Positions 6,438-28,810 of a stretch of DNA of 34,464 nt are shown here, in pieces. Positions within the stretch are counted from its first letter, which is position 1; each line of letters starts with the position of its first letter. Both the position numbers and the translations under genes were made by a program. Origin of the DNA: Bacillota bacterium (GTDB lineage Bacteria; Bacillota; UBA4882; UBA8346); the NCBI GenBank assembly GCA_029553165.1, contig JAKPCT010000256.1, positions 1-34,464 of the forward strand. The letters run 5' to 3'. A model generated the notes under the pieces. It was not told where the DNA came from, made no database searches, and saw only the letters and a list, made by a program, of their open reading frames with translations.

Positions 6438-6481
6438 AATCGTACGTATTAATTAATCAGTTAATCAGTTAACAGATTAAC

Positions 6482-6565
6482 AACACTTCCCTACGGCGGT
6501 ACTAACCACATCAGGTTCAAAGGGTTAAGAGATTCACTCTTTCTCAGCCTCACGGCACCCCTAGT
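6482..6565 (-). promoter_or_regulatory. TPP riboswitch aptamer (THI element)
   Basis: The minus strand carries the conserved THI-element blocks in order: ctaggggtgcc, then gaggctgagaaa, acccttTGAACCTGAT, ggttagtaccgccg and tagggaagtg. These are the pyrimidine-sensing CTGAGA loop and the ACCTGAT / GxTAxTACCG diphosphate-sensing helices. It precedes the whole thiSGHFEC operon and should repress it when thiamine diphosphate is plentiful. Confidence 0.96.
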
Positions 6566-6592
6566 ATTGATTTAAATATTCAATTTTAATTT

Positions 6593-6621
6593 ATTATAAT
6601 TAAATCAAAGCTTCTTGTAAA
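6593..6621 (-). promoter_or_regulatory. Sigma-A-type promoter of the thiamine operon
   Basis: The minus strand reads TTTACA (6621-6616), a 17-base spacer, then TATAAT (6598-6593). Transcription would start near 6586, about 20 bases before the aptamer. It begins right behind the stop of the DUF4116-like gene, and I see no terminator between them, so some read-through into the leader is possible. Confidence 0.7.
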
Positions 6622-6629
6622 GAGATCTT

Positions 6630-9600
6630 TTAGCCACCAAAAGACCTTTCTGATGAATTAGTTGGTTTTCCTCTCCCTTCTCTTTCACTTACTCTTAGCA
6701 TCATTTGATGTAATATTTTTTCACGGTTTTTTTCTTTTAGAGCTTTTAATTCCTGGATATTATAGTCATCTTGATTGCGTTTTCCAGCAAACCTTTGTTG
6801 TACCGTCTTATCTGCCATACGTTCTTCTTCCTTCACTATCAGTGTTTTTCCTGCGGCAATTTTTTCAAATATTCTCTCAATTGCGGTTTCTCGTTCCTGG
6901 ACGCTTTTTTTCATTATTCCTGTTTTTGGTGTTTTAGCTATGTCCAGTAAACGTATTTTTTCCCCATTCTCAACATAAACCATATACCAGTCTACTCCAA
7001 TTATTACGTGCAATTCTTCTGGGTTAGAGCCGTGCAATTTTCCTAATTCCTCGACTGTACTGATATTGGCCATCATGATCATTTCATGATTATCATTATA
7101 AGCTTCCATTTCAATATTTCTAATTGTTTGAATGTCGGTCAGACTGATTTGATGCCCTACCTTTTCATTTAACTCATCACGGTGTATCGCCAGAATCCCT
7201 GTTGCAATATTATCCCTTACTGTTTTAACTTCTTTTTTATAGAGTATTGCTTGTTCTTTAGCGTCAGTATAGACATTTCCTCTTGGTAGAATCAATTCTT
7301 CATTTCCAACCCTTTGCTTTTCACTAAAGTCAACGTCCGAATTTTTCAAGCCAATGGTTACCATCGTCAGTTGATTGCTCTCATATTGCGCCTTGGTTAA
7401 TTTCCCTTCTTCCAATAATTTTGTCATTCGTTCATCATCTGCTTTGACTAATTCCCTTACAAATTCCTCCACTGTTTCTTTAATTTTAACTTCATTTTCT
7501 CTACTATTCTTATTGTGTGGTACTTCAAGATTATCAATACAGATTACTCTTTTTCCGTGAGCTTTTTCTTCCCATAACCATCCTTGTCCGACAATCTCCC
7601 CATGATCATCCCTGATTACCAGTACCCTTCCATTTAGTTTTTTCATACTGTGTTCCATTGAACTTTGTCCTGCTCGGTCCAGCGCTTGGCAGCAGTTGGT
7701 CAGTTCTCCGACAAAGATTCCTAATGGATCGTCCAATCGCAGCACTTCAAAGCTACAGCCATTACCTAGTTTTCCTTTTACTCTTGCTATACTACTTGCT
7801 TCTCTTTCCCTTGCTTCCTTCCATATTTCTAAGGCTCGTTGGAATTGTTCCTGACTGTAGCCATAGTTTTTCGCATATTCTGCCCCTTTTTCAAACCCAG
7901 GAACAATCATGAATTTTTTGTTCGTGATGTATGTTAATGCGGTTGCCAGTGTTATTTCTTTTCCTGGGTTCATTTGAACAATTTCGGAATATCGTTCCTG
8001 AATGTTCCTAATTTGTTTAGAAATGGGATCTTCAATTATCTGATCAATATATTTTCCTAAGAATTCTCCAAATCTTTTATCATAGTTAATAGTGAGTTTA
8101 TCAAACACCCGATGTACATCTTTGGGAGTCATTAACCCTTTTATATGTATGTCTTGTTCGAATATTGCCTTAACTATCGCTTTTTCAATTTCCGGCTCTA
8201 ATGTTTCTATTTTTTCGTATCTTACTGTCTCTCTTTGATATCCTTTTTTAGTATTATCTTTTATTGCTTCGGCTTCTTTTAACACTTTGTTATATTGGAC
8301 TTCCTCGATTATCAGATTAATATTTTGTCTCGCATTTGCCCCTAACATGTTGGCTTCGGCTGTTAAACCGCTTTCTCTTAATATTATTCTGGTATAATCA
8401 AACAATTTTTTATTGGTATTACTAATTGCTGCAATGTTCTTACCTTTAGGGTCCTGCCATTCATGCAGAAACAACTCCCCTTTTTCGGTTGTTACTACTC
8501 TCATATTAAATCTGTATGTCCCATCTTTTTGCCGGGTAAAGATTTTTTTTAGGCATTCTGCTCCCAGTTTATCAATCTGCTCATATTGGTCTTTAGTCAG
8601 TGGTTTATCTGGTTTAGCTCCTATTTGATATAGCAGATTTTTGCTTAATACGTATCCATTTGGTTTGGATTTTATTATGAAGTTTTCTCCGTCTTGACCG
8701 ATCATTTCTCTGATATTTATTGGTGTTAATCCGTACTCCCGGTTATTATTTTGACTACCTATCAATAAATCTGCATATTGTGACGGTGTTAAGACAGTAT
8801 TCGTTATCCCTTTTGCAGCTAATGCATTCATTAATGAAAGATAATTTAATGTTTCTATATGTTCTTCTCTTCGAAATACGTATCTTTCTTCGGTTATCTT
8901 TTTATATACCGTTTCTATTCCCGCGATCGCTTCCAGCTTTTGATATTCCTGGCTCTCCAGTTGCTGCGGCAGACTGTTGATTAAACGTTTGATTGTGGTG
9001 TATCCTTTTTTTTGATTTTCAAAGACGCCCAAAGCATAACAAACTTTTAATAACGATAATTTAACATCATCACTTTGATATTCTGCATTTCCAGCCAATT
9101 CAGCCCATTTCCCTTTATTTTGGATAAATTTATCAATATCATTAATGGGCATGTTCTTCATTATTATATAACTTGGTATAAATTTGGCCTTTGCCTGCCA
9201 AATCGCCATTATATGTTCAGAATAATTATTGATCATTCTTTCTAATTTTTCTGGCTCTCTGATACCAAGATTTATGACTCGATCTCCCAAATATCTGAAT
9301 GCATAGCGATATTTTTCATCAAATAGCTCTTCACAGTTCTTCCCTGCTAAATACTGTTTCCAGTGAGGGTTCCTCTTTAAATCTTTAAAGGTTACTCTTC
9401 TTTCTTTTAATAACTCCTGGAACTCTTGGGGCAGCTTCTCCCTGTCGACCTTTGCTAAACTTTCATTATTTTTAATGATTGAGCTCAACAGCGGTATTTC
9501 TTTCAAGGTTATTTTCGCTAATCTTTCGTGATCAGCGATCTTCTTGATTACCACCCTTAAGTCTTCCAACTCCTCTTTGGTAACTTGATCGCGGTCAAAC

Positions 9601-10406
9601 CCATTCCATATCACTTCACTTATTTTTATTATAAACTCATCATCGTCTTTCAGTTTTTCCCCTGCATAAACTAATGTTCTTCGGTCTTGTGATGCTGCTA
9701 GTTCGATTATTTCCGGATCATTCCTGATATCTTCCCCTGCAAGTCCCAATGCACACCAATCCTGCATAATGGCAATCACAACTATTTCTTTATCATTTTT
9801 TACTGCTTCTCCTGCATAACGCAATGCATACCATTTTTTTAATACTGCTATTTTAACTAAATCCTTATCATTTCTTAATGTATCCCCGGCAAATTGCAGA
9901 TTATCCCCATCTTCTGTTACTGCTTGTAACACAATTTTCCGATTTTTTCTGACATCTTCGCCTGCATATTGTAAGGCGCCCGGAAAATTTAATAAGGCCA
10001 ATCCCACTATCTCAACATTATTTCTTAATGCTTCACTCGCATATTGCAAAGCATTACCAGACACCATTACTGCAAATATCATAACTTCTTCATCATCTTT
10101 TAATGCCTCTCCCGCATATTGTAAAGCCTCCACTGAATTTGCAACTGCCATTTTTACTATTTCCTTATCATTTCTTAAGGCTTCACTCGCGTATTGTAAG
10201 TTTTCACCATGCCTAAATACGGCAGTTTCAACTATTTCCCGATCATTTTTAAATTTTTCGTTCACATATTGAAATGCATCCCATTGGTGAGATACTGCTG
10301 TTTTCACTATTTCTCTGTCATTTCTTAAATCTGCTTCTAAATCTTTAAACTGTATCTCATTATTAATTAACTTTTTAATAATCAGCTGTCTTTCTTCAAC
10401 CGTCAT
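6630..10406 (-). CDS. Giant DUF4116-like repeat protein, copy 1 (1258 aa)
   Basis: Residues 27-251 are nine tandem 25-residue units of the form LRNDKEIVKMAV-----ALQYAGEA plus a broken tenth, which I recognise as DUF4116-type repeats. Residues about 260-890 are mostly helical and charged, without a motif I know. Near residue 900 comes LTNCCQALDRAG, then GQGWLWEE and ICIDNLEV, strand-like segments followed by a helix, faintly like a GNAT fold. A second conserved block near 1140 reads GVDWYMVYVENG. The C-terminus ends SFGG. There is no signal peptide or membrane segment. The start at 10406 follows ggggg. It is 20 bases after the ProA-like gene and is paralogous to the 11645-15640 gene along its whole length. 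It is more AT-rich than the thi genes. Function unknown. Confidence 0.85.
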   Translation of the reverse strand: MTVEERQLIIKKLINNEIQFKDLEADLRNDREIVKTAVSHQWDAFQYVNEKFKNDREIVETAVFRHGENLQYASEALRNDKEIVKMAVANSVEALQYAGEALKDDEEVMIFAVMVSGNALQYASEALRNNVEIVGLALLNFPGALQYAGEDVRKNRKIVLQAVTEDGDNLQFAGDTLRNDKDLVKIAVLKKWYALRYAGEAVKNDKEIVVIAIMQDWCALGLAGEDIRNDPEIIELAASQDRRTLVYAGEKLKDDDEFIIKISEVIWNGFDRDQVTKEELEDLRVVIKKIADHERLAKITLKEIPLLSSIIKNNESLAKVDREKLPQEFQELLKERRVTFKDLKRNPHWKQYLAGKNCEELFDEKYRYAFRYLGDRVINLGIREPEKLERMINNYSEHIMAIWQAKAKFIPSYIIMKNMPINDIDKFIQNKGKWAELAGNAEYQSDDVKLSLLKVCYALGVFENQKKGYTTIKRLINSLPQQLESQEYQKLEAIAGIETVYKKITEERYVFRREEHIETLNYLSLMNALAAKGITNTVLTPSQYADLLIGSQNNNREYGLTPINIREMIGQDGENFIIKSKPNGYVLSKNLLYQIGAKPDKPLTKDQYEQIDKLGAECLKKIFTRQKDGTYRFNMRVVTTEKGELFLHEWQDPKGKNIAAISNTNKKLFDYTRIILRESGLTAEANMLGANARQNINLIIEEVQYNKVLKEAEAIKDNTKKGYQRETVRYEKIETLEPEIEKAIVKAIFEQDIHIKGLMTPKDVHRVFDKLTINYDKRFGEFLGKYIDQIIEDPISKQIRNIQERYSEIVQMNPGKEITLATALTYITNKKFMIVPGFEKGAEYAKNYGYSQEQFQRALEIWKEAREREASSIARVKGKLGNGCSFEVLRLDDPLGIFVGELTNCCQALDRAGQSSMEHSMKKLNGRVLVIRDDHGEIVGQGWLWEEKAHGKRVICIDNLEVPHNKNSRENEVKIKETVEEFVRELVKADDERMTKLLEEGKLTKAQYESNQLTMVTIGLKNSDVDFSEKQRVGNEELILPRGNVYTDAKEQAILYKKEVKTVRDNIATGILAIHRDELNEKVGHQISLTDIQTIRNIEMEAYNDNHEMIMMANISTVEELGKLHGSNPEELHVIIGVDWYMVYVENGEKIRLLDIAKTPKTGIMKKSVQERETAIERIFEKIAAGKTLIVKEEERMADKTVQQRFAGKRNQDDYNIQELKALKEKNREKILHQMMLRVSEREGRGKPTNSSERSFGG
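9654..10328 (-). repeat. Nine in-frame 75-bp coding repeats
   Basis: The stretch encodes nine consecutive 25-residue DUF4116-like units (residues 27-251). Units are diverged from each other, unlike a recent slippage array; the best-conserved columns are the L-N-D start, EIV, and the ALQYAGEA end. Confidence 0.85.
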
Positions 10407-10426
10407 TTCCTAACCCCCAATGATAC

Positions 10427-11368
10427 TTAAAAAGGATAAAACACATTCTTCTTGAGCATTAAATCTTCAAAATTAATATCAAAGCCACCATGGATCATTG
10501 GGCTTGCATTTACTGATACTGTTTTAGCCTTTACTTCTGTCATAAATTTAACTGCATTTTTTCGGTCTTTAGTTATTATTGATGCGCTGAATCCACTTCC
10601 GCTTCGGTTTATTTCTGCTATTGCATGGTCGATGTCGTCAACTGTTTCCAGTCCTTCATAGTTTTGTTTGAGGTCTTCATTCACTAATATTTTGATCTTT
10701 GCTTTACTCTTGATTATCTTGCTGATCAATTCACGATCCACTTCATCTTCAATATATATTTCATAATGGTCATATCCGCTGGTCATCACTTCAACTCTTG
10801 CTTTTTCTATAACTTCTTGTTGTTTTTCCCGGTCTCCGATTACCAGGACTCGATTGATTCTTAAACTGTTTTGGCAAAGCTCGGTTTCACCTTCAAATAC
10901 TATTTGTACTAGATCCGCCGGACATTTGTTGGCGCTCAATACTTTTTTGGTCAATTCAATTATTAGTCCGTTTGTTGTTATGTTTTTGTTGGTACATAAG
11001 ATCATTGCGTTATGTGTAGCGATTGCTCTTGCCACTAATCCCGCTGTTATGTACGGGTCGCCTTCATAGATTACTCCGAATACTCCGATGCTTTCTTGCT
11101 GGGTTCCATAGATAAATCCGTCTTCTGTTTTGAAACTTTCAATCGTCTTCTTATACTCTCTGCTTCTTTCAGCAATTTTTTCAAATTCATTTCGGATCGA
11201 TATCAGCGGTAAATGTTCAATATCATCATTGATCCTTGCCTGTTCTAATAAATCTTCATTTTCTAACAGCTGTTCTCCCACCAGTTTGATTATATCTTTG
11301 GTATTTACCTCATTTTGCATTCTTTGATAGGCATTTTCGGCTTTAAATATTATATCTGATAGATTCAT
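10427..11368 (-). CDS. ProA/aldehyde-dehydrogenase-like protein lacking the catalytic cysteine
   Basis: The 313-residue product matches gamma-glutamyl phosphate reductase (ProA) in pattern. It has SIGVFGVIYEGDPYITAG (about 93-110) for the family's IGVIYE-RP segment, then EINRSGSGFSASIITKDRKN and VKAKTVSVNASPMIHGGFD for the NADPH-domain core. Where ProA has its ATCNA-E-LLVH cysteine motif, this protein reads VMTSGYDHYEIYIED (about 194-208), with no cysteine. It also ends at YPF, about 100 residues short of a usual ProA, lacking the QKLHARGP tail. It is probably a pseudoenzyme or binding protein rather than a proline enzyme. The start at 11368 follows aggaggg. It lies between two giant DUF4116-like genes with a 20-base gap to one, so a shared role is likely. 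Confidence 0.75.
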   Translation of the reverse strand: MNLSDIIFKAENAYQRMQNEVNTKDIIKLVGEQLLENEDLLEQARINDDIEHLPLISIRNEFEKIAERSREYKKTIESFKTEDGFIYGTQQESIGVFGVIYEGDPYITAGLVARAIATHNAMILCTNKNITTNGLIIELTKKVLSANKCPADLVQIVFEGETELCQNSLRINRVLVIGDREKQQEVIEKARVEVMTSGYDHYEIYIEDEVDRELISKIIKSKAKIKILVNEDLKQNYEGLETVDDIDHAIAEINRSGSGFSASIITKDRKNAVKFMTEVKAKTVSVNASPMIHGGFDINFEDLMLKKNVFYPF

Positions 11369-11529
11369 TCTTTTACCCTCCTAATAATTTCTAAATTATT
11401 AATACTTTACAGTTTTTACTAATGATCGTTTACGGTTTCATCGTAACTTTCTAGTGGCTATTCTTTACTTAAAATGTTAGACTATTTTTTAGCAGTGACA
11501 TTTATTAATCAATAAAATGCTACATTTTA

Positions 11530-11625
11530 TCACTCTACAAGAGTAATTTCTTCTTTATCATTAACTTTTGCAGTTAATAACTCACTGGAACTACGACCTT
11601 CACTGTCTTCCAGAAGTATGCATGA
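11530..11625 (-). pseudogene. Possible 31-codon coding scrap between copy 2 and the ProA-like gene
   Basis: Within the 276-base gap the minus strand has a short open frame with protein-like composition (LLEDSEGRSSSELLTAK, then EEITLVE and a stop at 11530-11532), preceded by a stop and with no start codon or ribosome site. It may be a decayed C-terminus or chance. The rest of the gap up to 11530 is AT-rich leader for the ProA-like gene. Confidence 0.25.
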
Positions 11626-11644
11626 CTAACTAGATGAAGTTTCA

Positions 11645-14600
11645 TCACCCGCCAAAAGCCCATTTTGACGAGTTAGTTGGCTCTCCTCTTCCTTTTCTTT
11701 CACTTACACTTAGCATCAGGTGATGGGATGCTTCATTGCGAAAATCATTTCTCGTTTGATCCTTCATCACCCGGATATCATAACGATTTTGATTTCTGAC
11801 GATCATTCGTTGCACTGTTTTATATGCCGTACGTTCTCTTGCTTCTGTTAACAGTGTCTTTCCTGCCGCGGCTTTTTCTAAGATCCTTTCATAGGCCGTT
11901 TCTCTCTCTTGCGCACTCTTTCTGATTATTCCTGACTTTGGTGTTTTGGCTATGTCTAGAATGTGGACTGTTTCTGCAGTCTCGGCATAGACCATATACC
12001 AGTCCACCCCTTTGATTAAGCGCATCTCTTCGGGCTTGTAACTGTATAATTTTCCTAATTCTTCGACGGTCTTTATCTCTCCCATCATGATCATTTCAGG
12101 ATTGTCATTATAGGCTTCTCTTTCAATATTTTTAATTGTCTTGATATCTGTTGGGCTTATCTGTTTCCCCGTTTTTTCATTCAATTCATCCCGATGCAGC
12201 GCTATTAATCCTGCGGATCTATTATCATGTATTGCTTTAACTTTCCTTTCATATAAAATCGCTTGGTGCTTAGCATCAGTGTATACATTTTCTTTGGGTA
12301 GAATCAGTTCTTCAGCTTTTACCCGTTGCTTGTCACTAAAATCAATATCCGAATTTACCAGGCCAATAGTTACTGTAGTTAATTGATTACTTTCGTATTG
12401 TTTTTTAGTTATTTTTCCCTCTGCCATAAGCCTTGTCATTCGTTCATCGTCTGTTTTTACCAATTTTACTACGAAATTCTCCAGGGTTTCTTTAATTTTG
12501 ACACTATGTTCACCACTTCTTTTGCTTGCTGGAATTTCAACATTATCAATACAGATTACCCTTTTTCCGTTCTTTTTTTCTTCCCATAACCATCCTTGTC
12601 CAGTAATTTCCCCATTATTATCCCTTATCACCAGTACTCTTCCATTCGATTTTTTCATGCTGTGTTCCATTGAGCTTTGTCCTGCAGCGTCTAGCGCTTG
12701 ACAGCAGTTGGTCAGCTCTCCGACAAAGACTCCTAATGGATCATCTAACCGCAGCACTTCATAACTCCAGCCATTTTCCAGTTCTTCTACTACTCGTGGT
12801 ATACTGCTGGCTTCTCTTCTTCTGGCTTCGTCCCAGATTGCTTCCGCTCTGCGATATTTTTCCAGACTGTAACCATAGTCTTTAGCATATTCTGCTCCTT
12901 TTTCAAATCCAGGTAACGTTGGGTAAGTTTGGTTTGTTATGTGCGCTAATGCGACTGTCAATGTTATTTCTTTTTCCGGATTCATCCGCTTTATTTCAGA
13001 ATATCGTTCCTGGATGTTTCCAATTCGATCATACAGGATTGGATCTTCGATGATTTTGTCAATATATTTTCTGAAAAACTTTCCGAATTCTTCGTTATAA
13101 TTTATTTTCAGTTTATCAAATACCCGGTGTAATTTCTCTGGAGTCATTACTCCTTTTACTCGTATATCTTGTTCAATTATTGCTTTAATGATTTCATTTT
13201 CAATATTGGGATCTACGGTTGCAATTTTTTCATATCTTGCTATTTCTAACTGATATCCTTTTTTGGTATTGTCTTTTATTATTTCGGCTTCTTTCAGTAC
13301 TTTGTTATATTGTGCTTCATCTATTATTATATTGATATTTTGTCTTTCATTTGCTCCTAACATGTTAGCTTCTGTTATTAAGCCACATTCTCTGAATAGC
13401 ACTCTGGTATAGTCAAATAGTTTTTTGTTGGCTTTACTTATTTCTTCCAGGTTTTTGCTTTTGAGACCTTGTCCTTCATGGAGAAACACCTCTCCGTTTC
13501 CGGTACTCTCTACTCTCATGTTGAACTTATATGTCCCATCTTCTTGTTTGGTAAATATTCTTTTTAGATAATCCGCCCCTAATTTGTCAATTTGCTGATA
13601 TTGGTCTGTGGTTAATGGCTGGTCGGGTTTTACTCCTATTTGATATAACAGTTTTCTACTAAGTTCATATCCATTTGGTTTGGCTTTTACTACGAAGTTA
13701 TCTCCTTCTCTTGCCATCATTTCTCTTATTTCTGCTGGTAATAACTTGTTTTCCCATCTATTAAAACTCTGATTACCCAACAATTCTACATATTGTTGCT
13801 TTGTTAAAACACTAGCTGTGATTCCATTTTCAGCTAATGTTTCCATCAACAGTAGATAATTAAATACCTCTAAATGTTCTTCTCTTTTAAATACGTATCT
13901 TTCTTCATTTTTCTTTTGATAAACGAATTCTATTCCTTTGATGTTTTCCAGTTTCTGATATTCCTGAATCTCCAATTGCAGCGGTAAACTGTTGATTATT
14001 TTATCAATTATTTCGTATCCTTCTTTTTTGTTTTCAAATACACCCAGTGCATAAGATGCTTTTAATAATGATAACTTCGAATCATCATCTTGATATTTTA
14101 TATTTCCTGCCAGTCTGGCCCATTTCTCCTTGTTATGCAGAAATTTATCGATACTACCGGTTGGTATGTTCTTCATTATTATAGGGCTTGGTAAAAATTT
14201 TACCTTTTCATACCAGATTGCCATCAGATGTTCATATTTTAACATCTTCTCTAATCTTTCAGGATCTCTGGTCCCGAGATTTATTGCCTGGTCTCCCAAA
14301 CATTTTAATGCGTACCGGTATTGATATTCAAATATTGTTTCACAGTTTTTTCCTCTTAAATAATGCTTCCAGTTAGGATTCTTCTTTAAGTCTTCAAATC
14401 TTAACAATCTTTCTTTTAATAATTTCTGTAATTCTTGAGGCAGTTGCTCTTTTTCAATTTTTGCTAGATTTTCTTTAGATTTAAGAATTGAACTCAATAT
14501 GGATATTTGCTCTAACTCGATTTTAGTTAATCTTTCAAAATCATCGATCTTCTTAATTATTGTTCTTATATTTTCCATTTCCTCATTAGTGACGCGGTCT

Positions 14601-15640
14601 TTATTAAATCCATCCCATGCCAGTTCACTAATTTTTATTATAGTATTATCATCATTTTTAAGTTTTGTTCCAACATATATTAATGCCCTACTATCTTTTA
14701 ATGCTGCTAATTTTATTATTTCTTTATCATTTTTTAATTTCTCTCCTGCATATTCTAAGGCGCGCCAATCTTGTGATATTGCCATTTTTAATATTTCTTT
14801 GTTATTTCTTATTTCTTCTCCTGCATATTGTAAGGCACGCCAATTTTGTGATACTGCCACTGTTACTATTTCTTTATCGTTTCTTGTTTCTTCTCCAGCA
14901 TATTGCAAGGCATACCAATCCCTGGTTACTGCTGCCATTACTATTTCTTTATCATTTCTTAATGATTCCCCTGCATATTGCAAGGCTTCCCAACGATTTG
15001 TAACTGCCACTTTTACTATTTCTTTATCATTTCTTAATGCTTCACCCGCATATTGCAAAGCCTTACCATAACTTGCTATTGCCATTTTTACTATTTGTTT
15101 ATCATTTCTTAACGCTTCTCCCGCATATTCTAAGGCACCACCGTCATTTGATACCGCAATTTTTACTATTTCCCTATTGTTTCTCAATTCATTTCCGGCA
15201 TATTGTAATGCAGCTCCAGACTTTGATACTGCCAGTTCTACGATATCACGATCATTTCTTAATGCTTCTCCAGCGTATTGTAATGCATTCCCAGACTTTG
15301 ATACTGCCAGTTTTACTATTTCACGATCATTTTTTACTTCTTCTCCTGCGTATTGTAATGTGATACCAGATTTTAATACTGCTATCCTCACTATTTCGCG
15401 ATTATTTCTTAATGCTTCTCCCGCAAACTGTAATGCAAATCCAAAATTTGACACGGCCAGTTTCACTATTTCTTCATCATTTCTAAATTCTTCCCCCACA
15501 TATTTCAATGCTTCCCAATGATTTGCTACTGCTAGGATAACTAGTTCTCGATCTTTTCTTAAATCCGTTTCTATATCATTAAAGTTAATTTTATAGTTAG
15601 CAAGTTTATCTAAGAGTCTTTGTCTTTCTTCAGCTGTCAT
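11645..15640 (-). CDS. Giant DUF4116-like repeat protein, copy 2 (1331 aa)
   Basis: This is the longer paralogue of the protein at 6630-10406. Residues 27-326 are twelve 25-residue DUF4116-type units and a degenerate thirteenth. The long middle region includes a block shared with copy 1 (LLYQIGVKPDQPLTTDQY). LTNCCQALDAAGQSS lies near residue 977, followed by GQGWLWEEKKNG and ICIDNVEI, with GVDWYMVYAE downstream. The tail again ends in Gly-Gly (WAFGG). There is no signal peptide, membrane span or catalytic motif I can name. The ATG at 15640 was preferred because ggagg lies eight bases upstream; a GTG at 15655 overlaps that site. It is AT-rich and probably acquired or expanded by duplication. 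Function unknown. Confidence 0.85.
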   Translation of the reverse strand: MTAEERQRLLDKLANYKINFNDIETDLRKDRELVILAVANHWEALKYVGEEFRNDEEIVKLAVSNFGFALQFAGEALRNNREIVRIAVLKSGITLQYAGEEVKNDREIVKLAVSKSGNALQYAGEALRNDRDIVELAVSKSGAALQYAGNELRNNREIVKIAVSNDGGALEYAGEALRNDKQIVKMAIASYGKALQYAGEALRNDKEIVKVAVTNRWEALQYAGESLRNDKEIVMAAVTRDWYALQYAGEETRNDKEIVTVAVSQNWRALQYAGEEIRNNKEILKMAISQDWRALEYAGEKLKNDKEIIKLAALKDSRALIYVGTKLKNDDNTIIKISELAWDGFNKDRVTNEEMENIRTIIKKIDDFERLTKIELEQISILSSILKSKENLAKIEKEQLPQELQKLLKERLLRFEDLKKNPNWKHYLRGKNCETIFEYQYRYALKCLGDQAINLGTRDPERLEKMLKYEHLMAIWYEKVKFLPSPIIMKNIPTGSIDKFLHNKEKWARLAGNIKYQDDDSKLSLLKASYALGVFENKKEGYEIIDKIINSLPLQLEIQEYQKLENIKGIEFVYQKKNEERYVFKREEHLEVFNYLLLMETLAENGITASVLTKQQYVELLGNQSFNRWENKLLPAEIREMMAREGDNFVVKAKPNGYELSRKLLYQIGVKPDQPLTTDQYQQIDKLGADYLKRIFTKQEDGTYKFNMRVESTGNGEVFLHEGQGLKSKNLEEISKANKKLFDYTRVLFRECGLITEANMLGANERQNINIIIDEAQYNKVLKEAEIIKDNTKKGYQLEIARYEKIATVDPNIENEIIKAIIEQDIRVKGVMTPEKLHRVFDKLKINYNEEFGKFFRKYIDKIIEDPILYDRIGNIQERYSEIKRMNPEKEITLTVALAHITNQTYPTLPGFEKGAEYAKDYGYSLEKYRRAEAIWDEARRREASSIPRVVEELENGWSYEVLRLDDPLGVFVGELTNCCQALDAAGQSSMEHSMKKSNGRVLVIRDNNGEITGQGWLWEEKKNGKRVICIDNVEIPASKRSGEHSVKIKETLENFVVKLVKTDDERMTRLMAEGKITKKQYESNQLTTVTIGLVNSDIDFSDKQRVKAEELILPKENVYTDAKHQAILYERKVKAIHDNRSAGLIALHRDELNEKTGKQISPTDIKTIKNIEREAYNDNPEMIMMGEIKTVEELGKLYSYKPEEMRLIKGVDWYMVYAETAETVHILDIAKTPKSGIIRKSAQERETAYERILEKAAAGKTLLTEARERTAYKTVQRMIVRNQNRYDIRVMKDQTRNDFRNEASHHLMLSVSERKGRGEPTNSSKWAFGG
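14663..15562 (-). repeat. Twelve in-frame 75-bp coding repeats
   Basis: Residues 27-326 of copy 2 are twelve exact-length 25-residue units, three more than copy 1. Several neighbouring units (ALQYAGEA followed by LRNDKEIVK) are closer to each other than to those at the ends, consistent with internal duplication. The regular 75-base period also produces long antisense open frames that are not genes. Confidence 0.85.
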
Positions 15641-15712
15641 TACTCTATCCTCCACGCATCCTTAATACAGATATAGATATACACATCTACTTGTTCAGTA
15701 TCAAATAATTTC

Positions 15713-15759: not shown

Positions 15760-15797
15760 TAAAAATCCTGTAAACCTTATTCAATTAAGACTTACAG
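15760..15797 (-). terminator. Terminator of the ankyrin gene
   Basis: On the minus strand ctgtaagtctta pairs with taaggtttacag over 12 positions (G-T pairs included) around a six-base loop, followed by gattttta. It isolates the ankyrin gene from the DUF4116-like gene downstream. Confidence 0.7.
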
Positions 15798-15825
15798 AAT
15801 TTACTCAAACTTTAAACTTGATAAT

Positions 15826-23705: not shown

Positions 23706-26255
23706 TTAAGGAAATTCAAGAACAAAAGAAGCTCCTTTGCCTACCCCGTCGCTTTCCGCCCAAATTCTCCCATTCATCTCAGTCATATAATTCGCACAAC
23801 TATGCAGTCCAAAACCATGTCCATCTTCTTTGGTTGTAAACCCGTGAGTAAAGATCATCTCCAGCTTGTCCGGCGGAATACCATATCCGGTATCAGAAAT
23901 TCGAATGTACTTTTGATTATCGTTTTGATAAACCGAGATCGTTAAAATCCGATTGTCCTCATCCGAATCCAACATTGCTTCCTTGGCATTTTTGATCAAA
24001 TTAAGCAAAACATGAAACAGTTTAGTTGAATGGATCATCGCCGTGATTGGCTCACTATAATCCTTGATAATTTTAATCTTATACTTCTCTAAAGAAGCTA
24101 AATTAACCACCAGCGCTTTTTCAATAATACTGCAAAGGTCGATCTCTTCTAAATTAGGTTTATTAACTGTAAAGCTCTGATGTGTCGTCAGAATATCTTC
24201 AATTGAACCAAGCCGTTCTTCAATCCGGTTCGTAGCCACCAGCATCTGATCTTGTAAATCACCAAAAGCATCATTTAATTTAATCAAAAACTCCAATAAT
24301 TTTTCGCCCTTGGGATCCGTTTCAATAAACCAGTCCAATTGTTCAAGATTATCCTTTAACAGGGCAGTTGCTTTATAATAAGATGCAAAATGTGATGACT
24401 TGGAATACTCCTTCATCATATGTATGGAAATATTGATGCTGTTTAAAACATTACAGATGTTATGCAACGTTCCCGAGATAATATCAGCCATCCCCTGCCG
24501 ATGCGCCTGTTCCAAGAGTTTTTTATAACTATTGTCTAACTTGGCAATCAGGCTTGTCCCACATAAAACGGTACTGATATGGATACTCAGCTCTTGATAG
24601 ATCCGGGGATGTATCTGTTTCGGTTCAAAAATAATAAACCCGATTAACTGATCCGCTACCAACAGTAAATTGCTGATAATTGTGTATGGACGGTTATGCG
24701 GAAATAACGTCTTCGCAATCAATTGGTGCGGATCATCATGCTGATAAATACGTGGTTCTAATTTTTGATTTTCATGATAATGAAAGATCAGTTCACAGCT
24801 GTCAAAAGGGTTCGTTTCCATCTCCGGTTCTTTAAAAAGGTAAATCGAACAACTGATAATATCGAGCTGCTTTAGTTTGGCCTCCAAAGTGTCGACCACA
24901 TTTTGAATACTAAAATCACTTAATAATTGATGTCCAATCAACTGCAGGTTACGGTTTATTTTATTTAAATAGAGTTGTTGTCTCCCCCAGGCATTAATCA
25001 TTTTTTCTCTGATTAATATTTGGATTTGTTGCAATAAATCTTCACACCAGATTACAACTTCACAATCCTCACTTTTTAAATAGGGTAGCAGCCGGCTTCT
25101 GATTATTGCAGGCAGATCCTTAAGCGCTGTTAATTTCCGATAATCACTGAAGGTTCCCAGTTCTGCTGCAAGCCATTTAATTACTGAATACTGATCTTTA
25201 TTGATTAAACCAACTCGAATCGTTCGTAATAATCCGGAAAGATTAAGCCCGGTATTGGAAACTTCCCGAGCGATTTGGGTTGCAATTTGGTCCCAAACAA
25301 CCTCATCCAGTTCCATTAAACCCTTCGAAGCAGCAATCAACTGATCCGCTTTTGGCAAAAATACCGACTGGGAACTACAGCCACATGATTCCCGGATTAT
25401 TACCCTACCGGCAATCTCCGTTACCATTGGACATTTTTGCTGTCCGATTAATTGGAGCATCATTTTACATGTAATATAACCTAATTCCTTAAACGGATAA
25501 TACACTGTCGTCAGCGGCGGAGAACTAAATTTACCCAATAAACTCTCCTCAAAACAGGCAACAGCTATATCCTGTGGCACATTAAATCCTCTTAATTGCA
25601 ACTCTTCTAAAACAGCTACGGTCTCTTCAGTATAAAAAGAAACAATCGCTTCAAACTGAACTTTCCGTTCATCCAGTAATATCTCCAGTGCTTTTTTCCC
25701 TCTTATTAAAGGTTCACACTCGATTTCTTCAGCATTTACCACCAACTCCGGATGGTAAATCCCATACTCAGTCAGTAGTTCCTGATAAAAATCGGTCTGC
25801 TGATCCTGTCCCATTGGCTTAATCAAAGCAATCTTTTGGTAATGGTGGACCTTGATTAAGTGAAGCAAAACTTCTTTAAAATACTGCTCCTTCCGGAAGA
25901 ACACATACGGAATATCTTCAATTTCTTTACCCAAACTCAACAAAGGAAGTTTGGCAAACCGCGCTTTAAACTTAGCAAGATTATCGGCAGAAACTGCGCG
26001 CGACCACCCAAGAAAGATTAAACCATCAATATCGATTTGTTCAATACAATCCAACAATTTGTCGATGCCAAAATCAACTTCCTTTGAACCATTTAATAAA
26101 TGGCCAAACCGGATAACATTGACATCAAATTTTTGTGCCGCCTCAAAGATTCCTTCCGCAATCAAGCTCTGCGACTCGTCCAGATCATTATCATCTAAAA
26201 ATCCGATCGTTAATCTATTCTTCATCAGTTTCGCGATTTGATCATGATTGTCCAT
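23706..26255 (-). CDS. Soluble histidine kinase with a LacI-type ligand-binding domain, copy A
   Basis: The product is 849 residues. Residues about 15-285 resemble the periplasmic-binding-protein fold of LacI/GalR regulators (LTTVYYPFKELGYI near 260, GRVIIRESCGC after it) without a DNA-binding headpiece. A middle region of about 300 residues includes a possible GAF-like part. Near residue 600 is the phospho-acceptor box TLHNICNVLNS, followed by a HATPase domain (NLIKNAKEAM, DTGYGIPPDKL, GFGLHSCANYM). There is no signal peptide or membrane span, so it should sense a cytoplasmic small molecule. The ATG at 26255 follows ggag at eight bases. It is paralogous to the next gene upstream in the operon, 32 bases away. 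Confidence 0.88.
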   Translation of the reverse strand: MDNHDQIAKLMKNRLTIGFLDDNDLDESQSLIAEGIFEAAQKFDVNVIRFGHLLNGSKEVDFGIDKLLDCIEQIDIDGLIFLGWSRAVSADNLAKFKARFAKLPLLSLGKEIEDIPYVFFRKEQYFKEVLLHLIKVHHYQKIALIKPMGQDQQTDFYQELLTEYGIYHPELVVNAEEIECEPLIRGKKALEILLDERKVQFEAIVSFYTEETVAVLEELQLRGFNVPQDIAVACFEESLLGKFSSPPLTTVYYPFKELGYITCKMMLQLIGQQKCPMVTEIAGRVIIRESCGCSSQSVFLPKADQLIAASKGLMELDEVVWDQIATQIAREVSNTGLNLSGLLRTIRVGLINKDQYSVIKWLAAELGTFSDYRKLTALKDLPAIIRSRLLPYLKSEDCEVVIWCEDLLQQIQILIREKMINAWGRQQLYLNKINRNLQLIGHQLLSDFSIQNVVDTLEAKLKQLDIISCSIYLFKEPEMETNPFDSCELIFHYHENQKLEPRIYQHDDPHQLIAKTLFPHNRPYTIISNLLLVADQLIGFIIFEPKQIHPRIYQELSIHISTVLCGTSLIAKLDNSYKKLLEQAHRQGMADIISGTLHNICNVLNSINISIHMMKEYSKSSHFASYYKATALLKDNLEQLDWFIETDPKGEKLLEFLIKLNDAFGDLQDQMLVATNRIEERLGSIEDILTTHQSFTVNKPNLEEIDLCSIIEKALVVNLASLEKYKIKIIKDYSEPITAMIHSTKLFHVLLNLIKNAKEAMLDSDEDNRILTISVYQNDNQKYIRISDTGYGIPPDKLEMIFTHGFTTKEDGHGFGLHSCANYMTEMNGRIWAESDGVGKGASFVLEFP

Positions 26256-26287
26256 CACTCAAGCTCCATCTGGTTAATTGATCGTTA

Positions 26288-28810
26288 TTAAATAAATTTC
26301 AGTACAATGGTACTTCCTCTGCCTAGCCCTTCACTCTCCGCCCAAATGTGTCCGCCGATATCCATCATATAATTAGCGCAACTATAAAGACCAAACCCAC
26401 TGCTTTCTTTTTTGGTTGAATACCCATACGAGAAAATCTTATCTAACTTATCAGGTTCAATCCCACATCCGGTATCCGAGATATAGATCAGTTTCCCGTT
26501 TTCACTTTGATTCACAACAAAAGAAAGCTTTCGCTGTTGTTCCGGGGCTGTTAACATTGCGTCTTTGGCATTTTCAATAATGGTATAAAGAATATGAAAC
26601 AATTTGGCCCGCTGCACAATAACTCGGGGAAAATGTTGATACTCTTTATTAACGGTAATCCGTAACCGGTCCAATGAAGTCGATTGCAACTTCAAGACTT
26701 CCTCAATCACACCAACAACATCAACCGCTTCCGGATTGGCTTTAACACTGGCATACATCTGTTGCGCATTAATAATTTCGGTGATCGAATTGATCTTTTC
26801 ATCCAAGCGGTCAACATGGTATTTCAAATGATTTTGCATATTTATAAAAGAATCGGTTAATTTAACATAGAACTCCATCAATTTTTTTCCCTTAGGATCA
26901 TTTTGGATAAAGGTTTTGAAGTCATGAAGATTTTTCGCTAATATTTGATTAGCTTTCTTCAGTTCATTGACTGGTGAATTAGTTATTACATCCTTGAGAA
27001 TGTGTAATGAGGCATTTGCGCTGTTCAAAACATTCCCAATTGTATGAAGGATATTGATCGCAACATCAGCGATCCCTTCACGGTGAGCTTTGATTAACAG
27101 TTGGTTGTAACTATTATCAAGCCGTTGCAGCAACAGAGCGCCTCTGATCGCAACACTGATATCTTCCGCGAGTTCCTGGTAGACATTCTCCTCAATAGGG
27201 CCGGCCTCAAATATAACAACTCCAATTAAATCATGCTGCGAAGCCAACAAGTATGTATAATACGGTTTAGCTGCTTCCGAGTCGATTACCGGCCTTAATA
27301 TCTCTTTTAGGGTGACTGAAGTTGTCCCCTCATGTACAATCCGTTGCCTGTCACGATAATTAAATGCTAATGAAGCTGAATCAAACCGGTTGGGGCAGGC
27401 TTCTTCCGCGGATTTAAATACCGAATCAAAAACTATTACCGAACAGCCGGGAATCTCCAATTGGCTTAAGTTTTGTTCCAGCAAATTAAATAAATTATCA
27501 AGATTGAAATTATTGATTAACTCTTGTCCCACTTGATGCCGGATTTGACTCTGCTTCAGCTTTTGCAGTTCCGCATTGCCCCGGACAAGATGAAGCTTCT
27601 CCCATAAACAGACTTGGGCTTGTTGAAATAAATCGCCAAACCGCAACAGCTTCTCCTTACTGTTACTGAAATACGGCAGTAGTTGTCCCCGCAAAACTAA
27701 GATTAACTCTCCGATATTGGTTGCAATATATGATTCAGTGATTGTATCTAACTGACGTTTAAGTTCATCAATAAAATATTGGTTGCCGGTTAGTTCCAGA
27801 TCTTTGATCAACGCGGTGATCAAGCTTTGATAATCCAGATTTAAATAGTAAAATTGTTCATTCATCTTAGTAACAATCTTTGCTACCTCTGTTTCTGATA
27901 GCTGCTCCGGGCCCAATTCTTGAAGCGTCTGGCTGGTATCTGCAATTTTAATTGTACAACCACAAGAATCCCTGATAATTAATCTCCCTAAGACTTCGGT
28001 CGTTGTTGAACTACAACCATGCTCCAAGATTGCGATCAACTGCTCACAACCGCAATACCCCAGTTCAAACCATGGAAAGTAAACCGTTGTCAGTGAAGGA
28101 GAATAGTAACGGGCCAGATCTCCATCATCAAAACTGGTTACCGCAATCTTTTCCGGTACATTAATTCCCCGTTGTTGTAACTCCTCAATAATCGCTCCCG
28201 TCTCGCGATTATCCAAGCTAATAATGGCATCGAGCTCCACCATTCGCTCATCCAATAATAATGATACTGCTTTTTGGCCTCGCTCCTCCGCAGTCAGGCC
28301 GGTTAAATCAGTTTCGTTAACATAGAGATCCGGATTATAAATACCATTTTGTTGCATTATTTCGATATAATATTGACTGCTTAAATCCGGAATGCTTGAA
28401 GCAATATAAGCAATCTTTTGAAAACCGTGTTCCTCGATTAAATGACCGATCAACTGCTGAAAATGCCGCCCCCAGTCAAAATAAACACCCGGATCAGCCC
28501 GGTGATTAATTCCGATGCTTAAAATGGGCAGCGTTCCAAAGAAAGCTTTGAAAGGTTCACTTACTAAGAGATCATCAGCTAATCCAAAACAAAGTAAACC
28601 ATCCAGGCGATACTGCGCAACATATTCCAGCAAATCCGTTTGTTCCTGCGACAAATCATTAGAGTAAGGTTTTAAAGAACCAAATCGAATTAATTGGACA
28701 TTATGCTTTTCGGCAGCTTTAACAATCCCCATTACCAGCTGGTTTATATTATTTAGATTGTCAGACAGATAATTATTATCAAAATAACCAAACGTATATT
28801 TGGGTTTCAA
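26288..28810 (-). CDS. Soluble histidine kinase with a LacI-type ligand-binding domain, copy B
   Basis: The 840-residue product has the same architecture as its neighbour. The LacI-like sensor spans about 5-280 (FDDGDLARYYSPSLTTVYFP, LIIRDSCGC), a long middle region follows, and the H-box is ILHTIGNVLNS near residue 590. The HATPase motifs are ENAKDAML, DTGCGIEPDKLDK and GFGLYSCANYM. No membrane segment is seen. The apparent start is a TTG at 28810 with a gggatgg-type site just upstream. It is the first gene of the kinase-kinase-regulator unit. The sensor sequences of the two kinases differ clearly, so they probably recognise different ligands while converging on one regulator. The ligand is unknown; LacI relatives usually bind sugars or nucleosides. 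Confidence 0.88.
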   Translation of the reverse strand: MKPKYTFGYFDNNYLSDNLNNINQLVMGIVKAAEKHNVQLIRFGSLKPYSNDLSQEQTDLLEYVAQYRLDGLLCFGLADDLLVSEPFKAFFGTLPILSIGINHRADPGVYFDWGRHFQQLIGHLIEEHGFQKIAYIASSIPDLSSQYYIEIMQQNGIYNPDLYVNETDLTGLTAEERGQKAVSLLLDERMVELDAIISLDNRETGAIIEELQQRGINVPEKIAVTSFDDGDLARYYSPSLTTVYFPWFELGYCGCEQLIAILEHGCSSTTTEVLGRLIIRDSCGCTIKIADTSQTLQELGPEQLSETEVAKIVTKMNEQFYYLNLDYQSLITALIKDLELTGNQYFIDELKRQLDTITESYIATNIGELILVLRGQLLPYFSNSKEKLLRFGDLFQQAQVCLWEKLHLVRGNAELQKLKQSQIRHQVGQELINNFNLDNLFNLLEQNLSQLEIPGCSVIVFDSVFKSAEEACPNRFDSASLAFNYRDRQRIVHEGTTSVTLKEILRPVIDSEAAKPYYTYLLASQHDLIGVVIFEAGPIEENVYQELAEDISVAIRGALLLQRLDNSYNQLLIKAHREGIADVAINILHTIGNVLNSANASLHILKDVITNSPVNELKKANQILAKNLHDFKTFIQNDPKGKKLMEFYVKLTDSFINMQNHLKYHVDRLDEKINSITEIINAQQMYASVKANPEAVDVVGVIEEVLKLQSTSLDRLRITVNKEYQHFPRVIVQRAKLFHILYTIIENAKDAMLTAPEQQRKLSFVVNQSENGKLIYISDTGCGIEPDKLDKIFSYGYSTKKESSGFGLYSCANYMMDIGGHIWAESEGLGRGSTIVLKFI

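Follow-up and report, generated by a model that had tools for sequence, protein, structure and literature searches.

A compositionally distinct block of two giant DUF4116 proteins and a ProA-like protein, probably acquired together, beside a Bacillota thi operon

Polyvalent proteins, among which GNAT, RadC and LPD5 domains occur, are thought to be injected along with phage or plasmid DNA (PMC5512222). An alpha-solenoid fold has been predicted for the DUF4116 family (PMC8078820), and we find members of that family on several mobile elements. An Alistipes plasmid has a tandem pair of DUF4116 genes (L284:6914-10098) beside relaxase, LPD5 and helicase genes. A Fusobacterium plasmid encodes a fusion of a RadC-like JAMM stretch (AHNHPSG, identified by eye) to DUF4116 repeats (L282:6999-8600), the gene for which is located between MobA/MobL and PBECR4 genes, and a further DUF4116 protein is present in Fusobacterium phage phiFN37. 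At least 40 places matching the repeats were seen in Mycoplasmopsis cynos (NZ_LR214986.1, 987 kb). Here we describe two much larger DUF4116 proteins, giants A and B, and the ProA-like gene between them, in a window of 34,464 nucleotides (the whole stretch of Bacillota DNA that was analysed). We read this block, with a probability of about 0.5, as a horizontally acquired cassette, known from a single instance, in which polyvalent-type giants are joined by a non-catalytic ProA-derived partner or passenger, and whose mechanism we infer.

The first-pass annotation had placed the three genes on one strand, with a 20-base gap to the downstream giant, and the ORF coordinates bear this out (Table 1), the ProA-like gene ending 20 nt ahead of giant B. 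Clear Shine-Dalgarno stretches lie ahead of all three starts; giant A could alternatively start at an in-frame GTG at 15655, which would give 1336 aa. The 276 nt that separate giant A from the ProA-like gene contain neither a terminator-like site nor a consensus promoter on the block's strand, and their RNA fold is insignificant (z -0.65), so that a structured RNA or terminator at this position was rejected. The upstream neighbour of the block is an ankyrin-repeat gene, and the downstream neighbour is the thiGHFEC operon. A perfect TTGACA-17-TATAAT site is found directly upstream of the ankyrin-repeat gene (window 17106-17078, minus strand), and at window 23706-28810 a GGDEF/EAL response regulator adjoins a tandem pair of sensor kinases whose periplasmic domains are of the sugar-binding type. 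Three same-family relatives keep the thi operon, and the sequence fetched upstream of it in these three contains neither the block nor the block's upstream neighbours; gene by gene, the operon on our contig is ∼51-74% identical to those of same-family genomes. The source assembly is a draft of 303 contigs with an estimated contamination of 7%.

Table 1. Positions in the window of the block's genes and domains and of the sites at its edges
Feature	Position	Strand	Basis
Terminator-like hairpin of 17 pairs that separates giant A from the ankyrin gene	15763..15802	-	consensus match only
Giant A	11645..15640	-	intact ORF, 1331 aa from ATG at 15640
CCQ GNAT-like domain, giant A	12209..12871	-	alignments and profile match
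276-nt gap between giant A and ProA-like gene	11369..11644	-	sequence scan
ProA-like gene	10427..11368	-	intact ORF, 313 aa
Giant B	6630..10406	-	intact ORF, 1258 aa; architecture as in giant A
CCQ GNAT-like domain, giant B	7197..7859	-	alignments; AlphaFold2 model
Promoter-like site TTTACA-17-TATAAT, just past giant B, upstream of TPP riboswitch	6593..6621	-	consensus match only
TPP riboswitch of thiGHFEC operon, outside the block, marking its downstream edge	6471..6572	-	Rfam RF00059, 78.6 bits

The block had also been described as more AT-rich than its neighbours. This is correct with respect to the thi operon (GC ∼0.32-0.40 in the block versus 0.45-0.48 across the operon), whereas the other flank, at 0.35-0.42, is only slightly higher. 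GC3 and codon usage nonetheless set the block clearly apart on both sides, GC3 being 0.28-0.33 in the three block genes versus 0.34-0.49 in the identified flanking genes. By codon log-likelihood the ProA-like gene favors giant-type over flank-type usage by +64.6 bits, where simulations gave -69 (sd 13) for flank-type codons and +74.5 (sd 15) for giant-type codons. All twelve flanking genes tested scored negative, including thiC, HD and HhH, which were kept out of the background training set; the ankyrin-repeat gene likewise has host-type usage. Since the three genes have one codon signature in common, unlike that of the flanks, joint acquisition is the simplest reading, and the ProA-like gene probably arrived together with both giants.

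The two giants had been called alike from end to end, and they do align over 1236 aa with 64% identity and 79% similarity. Between them, dN is 0.23 and dS 1.08 (NG86), and the resulting dN/dS of ∼0.22 indicates that both are maintained by purifying selection. DUF4116 (PF13475) matches both far above its Pfam gathering cutoff of 24.9 bits, with 475.1 bits and 11 domain matches in giant A and 203.5 bits and 7 domain matches in giant B. Each repeat unit measures exactly 25 aa; giant A has about twelve (aa ∼27-325) and giant B about nine, and such units make up most of the length difference between the two proteins. The earlier label “DUF4116-like” is thus confirmed by Pfam, but it fits only the N-terminal quarter. 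In giant A the repeats are followed by a helical middle, a GNAT-like domain that we call CCQ, a degenerate second GNAT-like domain and a conserved tail, PTNSS..FGG. The informative part of the giants is the C-terminal GNAT-like domain that they share with phages, which the first-pass annotation missed. Two other candidate domains were set aside: a ParE_like match in giant A (25.9 bits) was judged a cross-hit because it is located inside the DUF4116 repeats, and Tox-HDC (PF15656) matched the C-terminus of giant B alone, at 18.2-18.5 bits against a cutoff of 21.

The CCQ domain, at the C-termini of both giants, is marked by the motif CCQ...QxWxW...DNxE...YTDA, and no Pfam or PHROGs model matches it above threshold. 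Its first phage match was Microcystis phage MaMV-DC ORF68L (29%), and pattern scans of viral contigs placed it in proteins of 648-2715 aa. Across a 12-row alignment that includes 10 phage rows, D..G...G..T.CCQ...Q.W.W...D..E...G...Y.D is invariant. A profile of these rows found matches in 2 of 399 phylum genomes besides the host's own. The better of the two is a 699-aa chromosomal Bacillota gene (L199:8175-10274) flanked on one side by a gene resembling that for the CCA-adding enzyme and on the other by the genes for ribosomal proteins S9 and L13 (identified from sequence by eye), and no DUF4116 or ProA-like gene was recognised among its neighbours; the weaker (E 0.003), in which no CCQ motif is visible, probably arose by chance. 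An AlphaFold2 model of giant B residues 840-1258 is confident in its first half (mostly pLDDT 85-94), where the CCQ domain lies, and the top PDB matches of this model in Foldseek are all GNATs, with a best E of 2.9e-4 and a TMt of about 0.5, for a query stretch that the output does not give. Judged by the acyl-CoA pyrophosphate loop Q/R-x-x-G-x-G/A that follows strand 4 in GNATs, the resemblance is incomplete: by eye, the alignment rows have no such loop after DNxE, and acyltransfer may therefore not be the activity of the CCQ domain.

The degenerate second GNAT-like region after the CCQ domain resembles the same position of a phage protein of ∼2700 aa that runs off its locus (L166:6880-14967, IMGVR_UViG_3300025073_000028). 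By eye, that protein has an HExxH stretch, then a CCQ domain, the GNAT-like region and a CCA/PolB-type NTase motif, and on this reading it may be a polyvalent-type protein. A 180-kb phage contig (IMGVR_UViG_3300026488_000012) has two paralogous CCQ-domain genes (L081, L164), an echo of the paired giants. The giants thus tie DUF4116, whose function is not established, to a strongly conserved, uncharacterised domain of large-phage proteins, for which we supply a defined alignment.

The ProA-like protein had been proposed to be a catalytically altered pseudoenzyme, and the alignment agrees. It is recognisable along its whole length against genuine ProA, at 22-28% identity, and scores 92.2 bits with NF001221 and 80.3 bits with TIGR00407, far below the respective NCBIfam equivalog cutoffs of 289 and 317 bits. 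At 313 aa, compared with about 415-430 aa in ProA, it has shortened terminal segments, and it has lost all the ProA catalytic motifs in-frame: PRGG, GNCH.YVD, the catalytic Cys segment NAKxQRPSVCNA, the TEEDWxTEYLD segment and GISTQKLHARGPMGL are absent, so the protein is presumably unable to catalyse the known ProA reaction. The confidence of its AlphaFold2 model is too low for interpretation (mean pLDDT 52.4), so that a surviving Rossmann core is only putative. The host's own ProA (L194) belongs to the FWNCSTRF subtype and is 24% identical to it, while the ProA-like protein has VNAS, as does the other ProA subtype, to which it is 25-28% identical; a recent duplication of the host gene is therefore an unlikely source.

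With its catalytic motifs gone and its ends shortened, the ProA-like gene might be a functionless passenger, a decaying ProA copy that came in with the giants and from which in-frame deletions have removed the catalytic parts. The low-confidence fold fits such decay, as do the searches for the short form, none of which turned up a homologue: the family and 300 phylum genomes gave full-length ProA alone, at 50 bits or less, the plasmid collections gave no short form, and the 80 ProA-related matches listed from viral contigs were all full-length. Yet the several separate losses left no frameshift or stop, and a frame of 313 codons stays open behind a strong ribosome-binding site, 20 nt ahead of giant B, in a gene with giant-type codons. 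We consider the passenger explanation unlikely, although it survives better than the other alternatives. Should the ProA derivative prove to work as a partner instead, it would offer a rare example of recruitment in which a metabolic enzyme has become a subunit without catalytic function in a mobile system of giant proteins.

Could the giants instead be exported effectors for interaction with a host, whose DUF4116 repeats act, ankyrin-like, on a eukaryotic or bacterial partner? An ankyrin-repeat gene does adjoin the block, and one DUF4116 gene, on an Escherichia marmotae plasmid, has type II secretion genes and a gene for a NEL-type E3 ligase in its vicinity, which makes an effector role conceivable. 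However, by hydropathy the giants have no long hydrophobic stretch, no membrane segment and no signal peptide at the N-terminus, and the ankyrin gene is host-type in its codons and set off by a terminator-like hairpin. Moreover, the giants' C-terminal domain is common to phage proteins, not to known effectors, and the Tox-HDC match stays below cutoff and is missing from giant A. Export of the giants therefore seems improbable.

The first-pass annotation had raised the possibility of a recurrent three-gene system, and had suggested asking whether ProA-like genes of this type always stand next to such giants. No second trio was found. The giants have no relative in any of the 28 other genomes of the class, so the co-occurrence rests on n = 1, nor in 398 further phylum genomes, apart from one marginal local match. 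Among viral contigs a scan with the DUF4116 repeats had no match, and neither the giants nor the ProA-like protein gave one in pattern scans of genome contigs; these searches of public collections used exact peptide patterns and are insensitive. The loci found elsewhere for the CCQ domain (192 kb) and for DUF4116 (75 kb) contain no ProA-like sequence, and the predicted co-occurrence thus fails outside this contig, an outcome that the first-pass annotation had itself named as counting against a system. We give a low standing to a dedicated three-protein complex, in which two unequal solenoid-acyltransferase giants would be regulated by a ProA pseudoenzyme that binds a nucleotide or a glutamate-derived ligand, as an undescribed mobile conflict or regulatory module; this is quite improbable. 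Least probable of all is a defence or counter-defence role, with one giant sensing or modifying, the pseudoenzyme supplying or sensing a small molecule and the second giant executing: in its favor are the foreign composition, the size of the giants, the inequality of the two paralogues and the links of the domains to mobile elements, but the instance is single, no recurrence beside known defence genes was seen, and no nuclease or NTPase domain was found.

Under the favored reading of an acquired cassette, the three genes would have been inserted as a block, with the ankyrin gene on one side and the thi operon on the other, and would be co-expressed. The giants would be ancient paralogues. Each has an N-terminal DUF4116 solenoid, presumably for binding, then a long helical stretch and at the C-terminus two GNAT-like domains, the CCQ domain first. 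Inside the cell they would bind proteins and perhaps acyl-modify them, like the proteins that phages and plasmids use in or against their hosts, the solenoid picking a target on which the CCQ domain then acts. The ProA-like protein would keep a Rossmann-type core and serve as a structural or ligand-binding partner, not as an enzyme. Counting against this reading, one trio is known, and Pfam scans of the window's ORFs recognised no phage, relaxase or integrase gene.

Each part of the block has a described counterpart from which it departs. ProA (gamma-glutamyl phosphate reductase) keeps the catalytic Cys segment and the other catalytic motifs that the ProA-like protein has lost. MaMV-DC ORF68L and other large-phage proteins have the C-terminal CCQ...QxWxW...DN.E...YTDA domain in common with the giants; unlike the giants, they have no recognised DUF4116 repeats and no ProA-like neighbour. 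The giants resemble DUF4116 repeat proteins in their 25-aa units and in scores far above the Pfam cutoff, whereas the members read from plasmid and phage records are about 385-670 aa long and have no CCQ match, compared with 1258-1331 aa and a CCQ domain in the giants. The giants differ from the polyvalent proteins (PMC5512222) in being set beside a thi operon and in having only solenoid and GNAT-like domains recognised in them. As the window has no recognised phage structural or conjugation gene, the giants fall outside the polyvalent class by neighbourhood. They nevertheless resemble it in being very large and multidomain with GNAT-type domains, in combining a DUF4116 solenoid with a CCQ domain common to phage proteins, and in the company that DUF4116 keeps elsewhere, next to relaxase, MobA/MobL, LPD5 and PBECR4 genes or in a RadC-like fusion. 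Judged by this architecture, their working mode may well be polyvalent-like.
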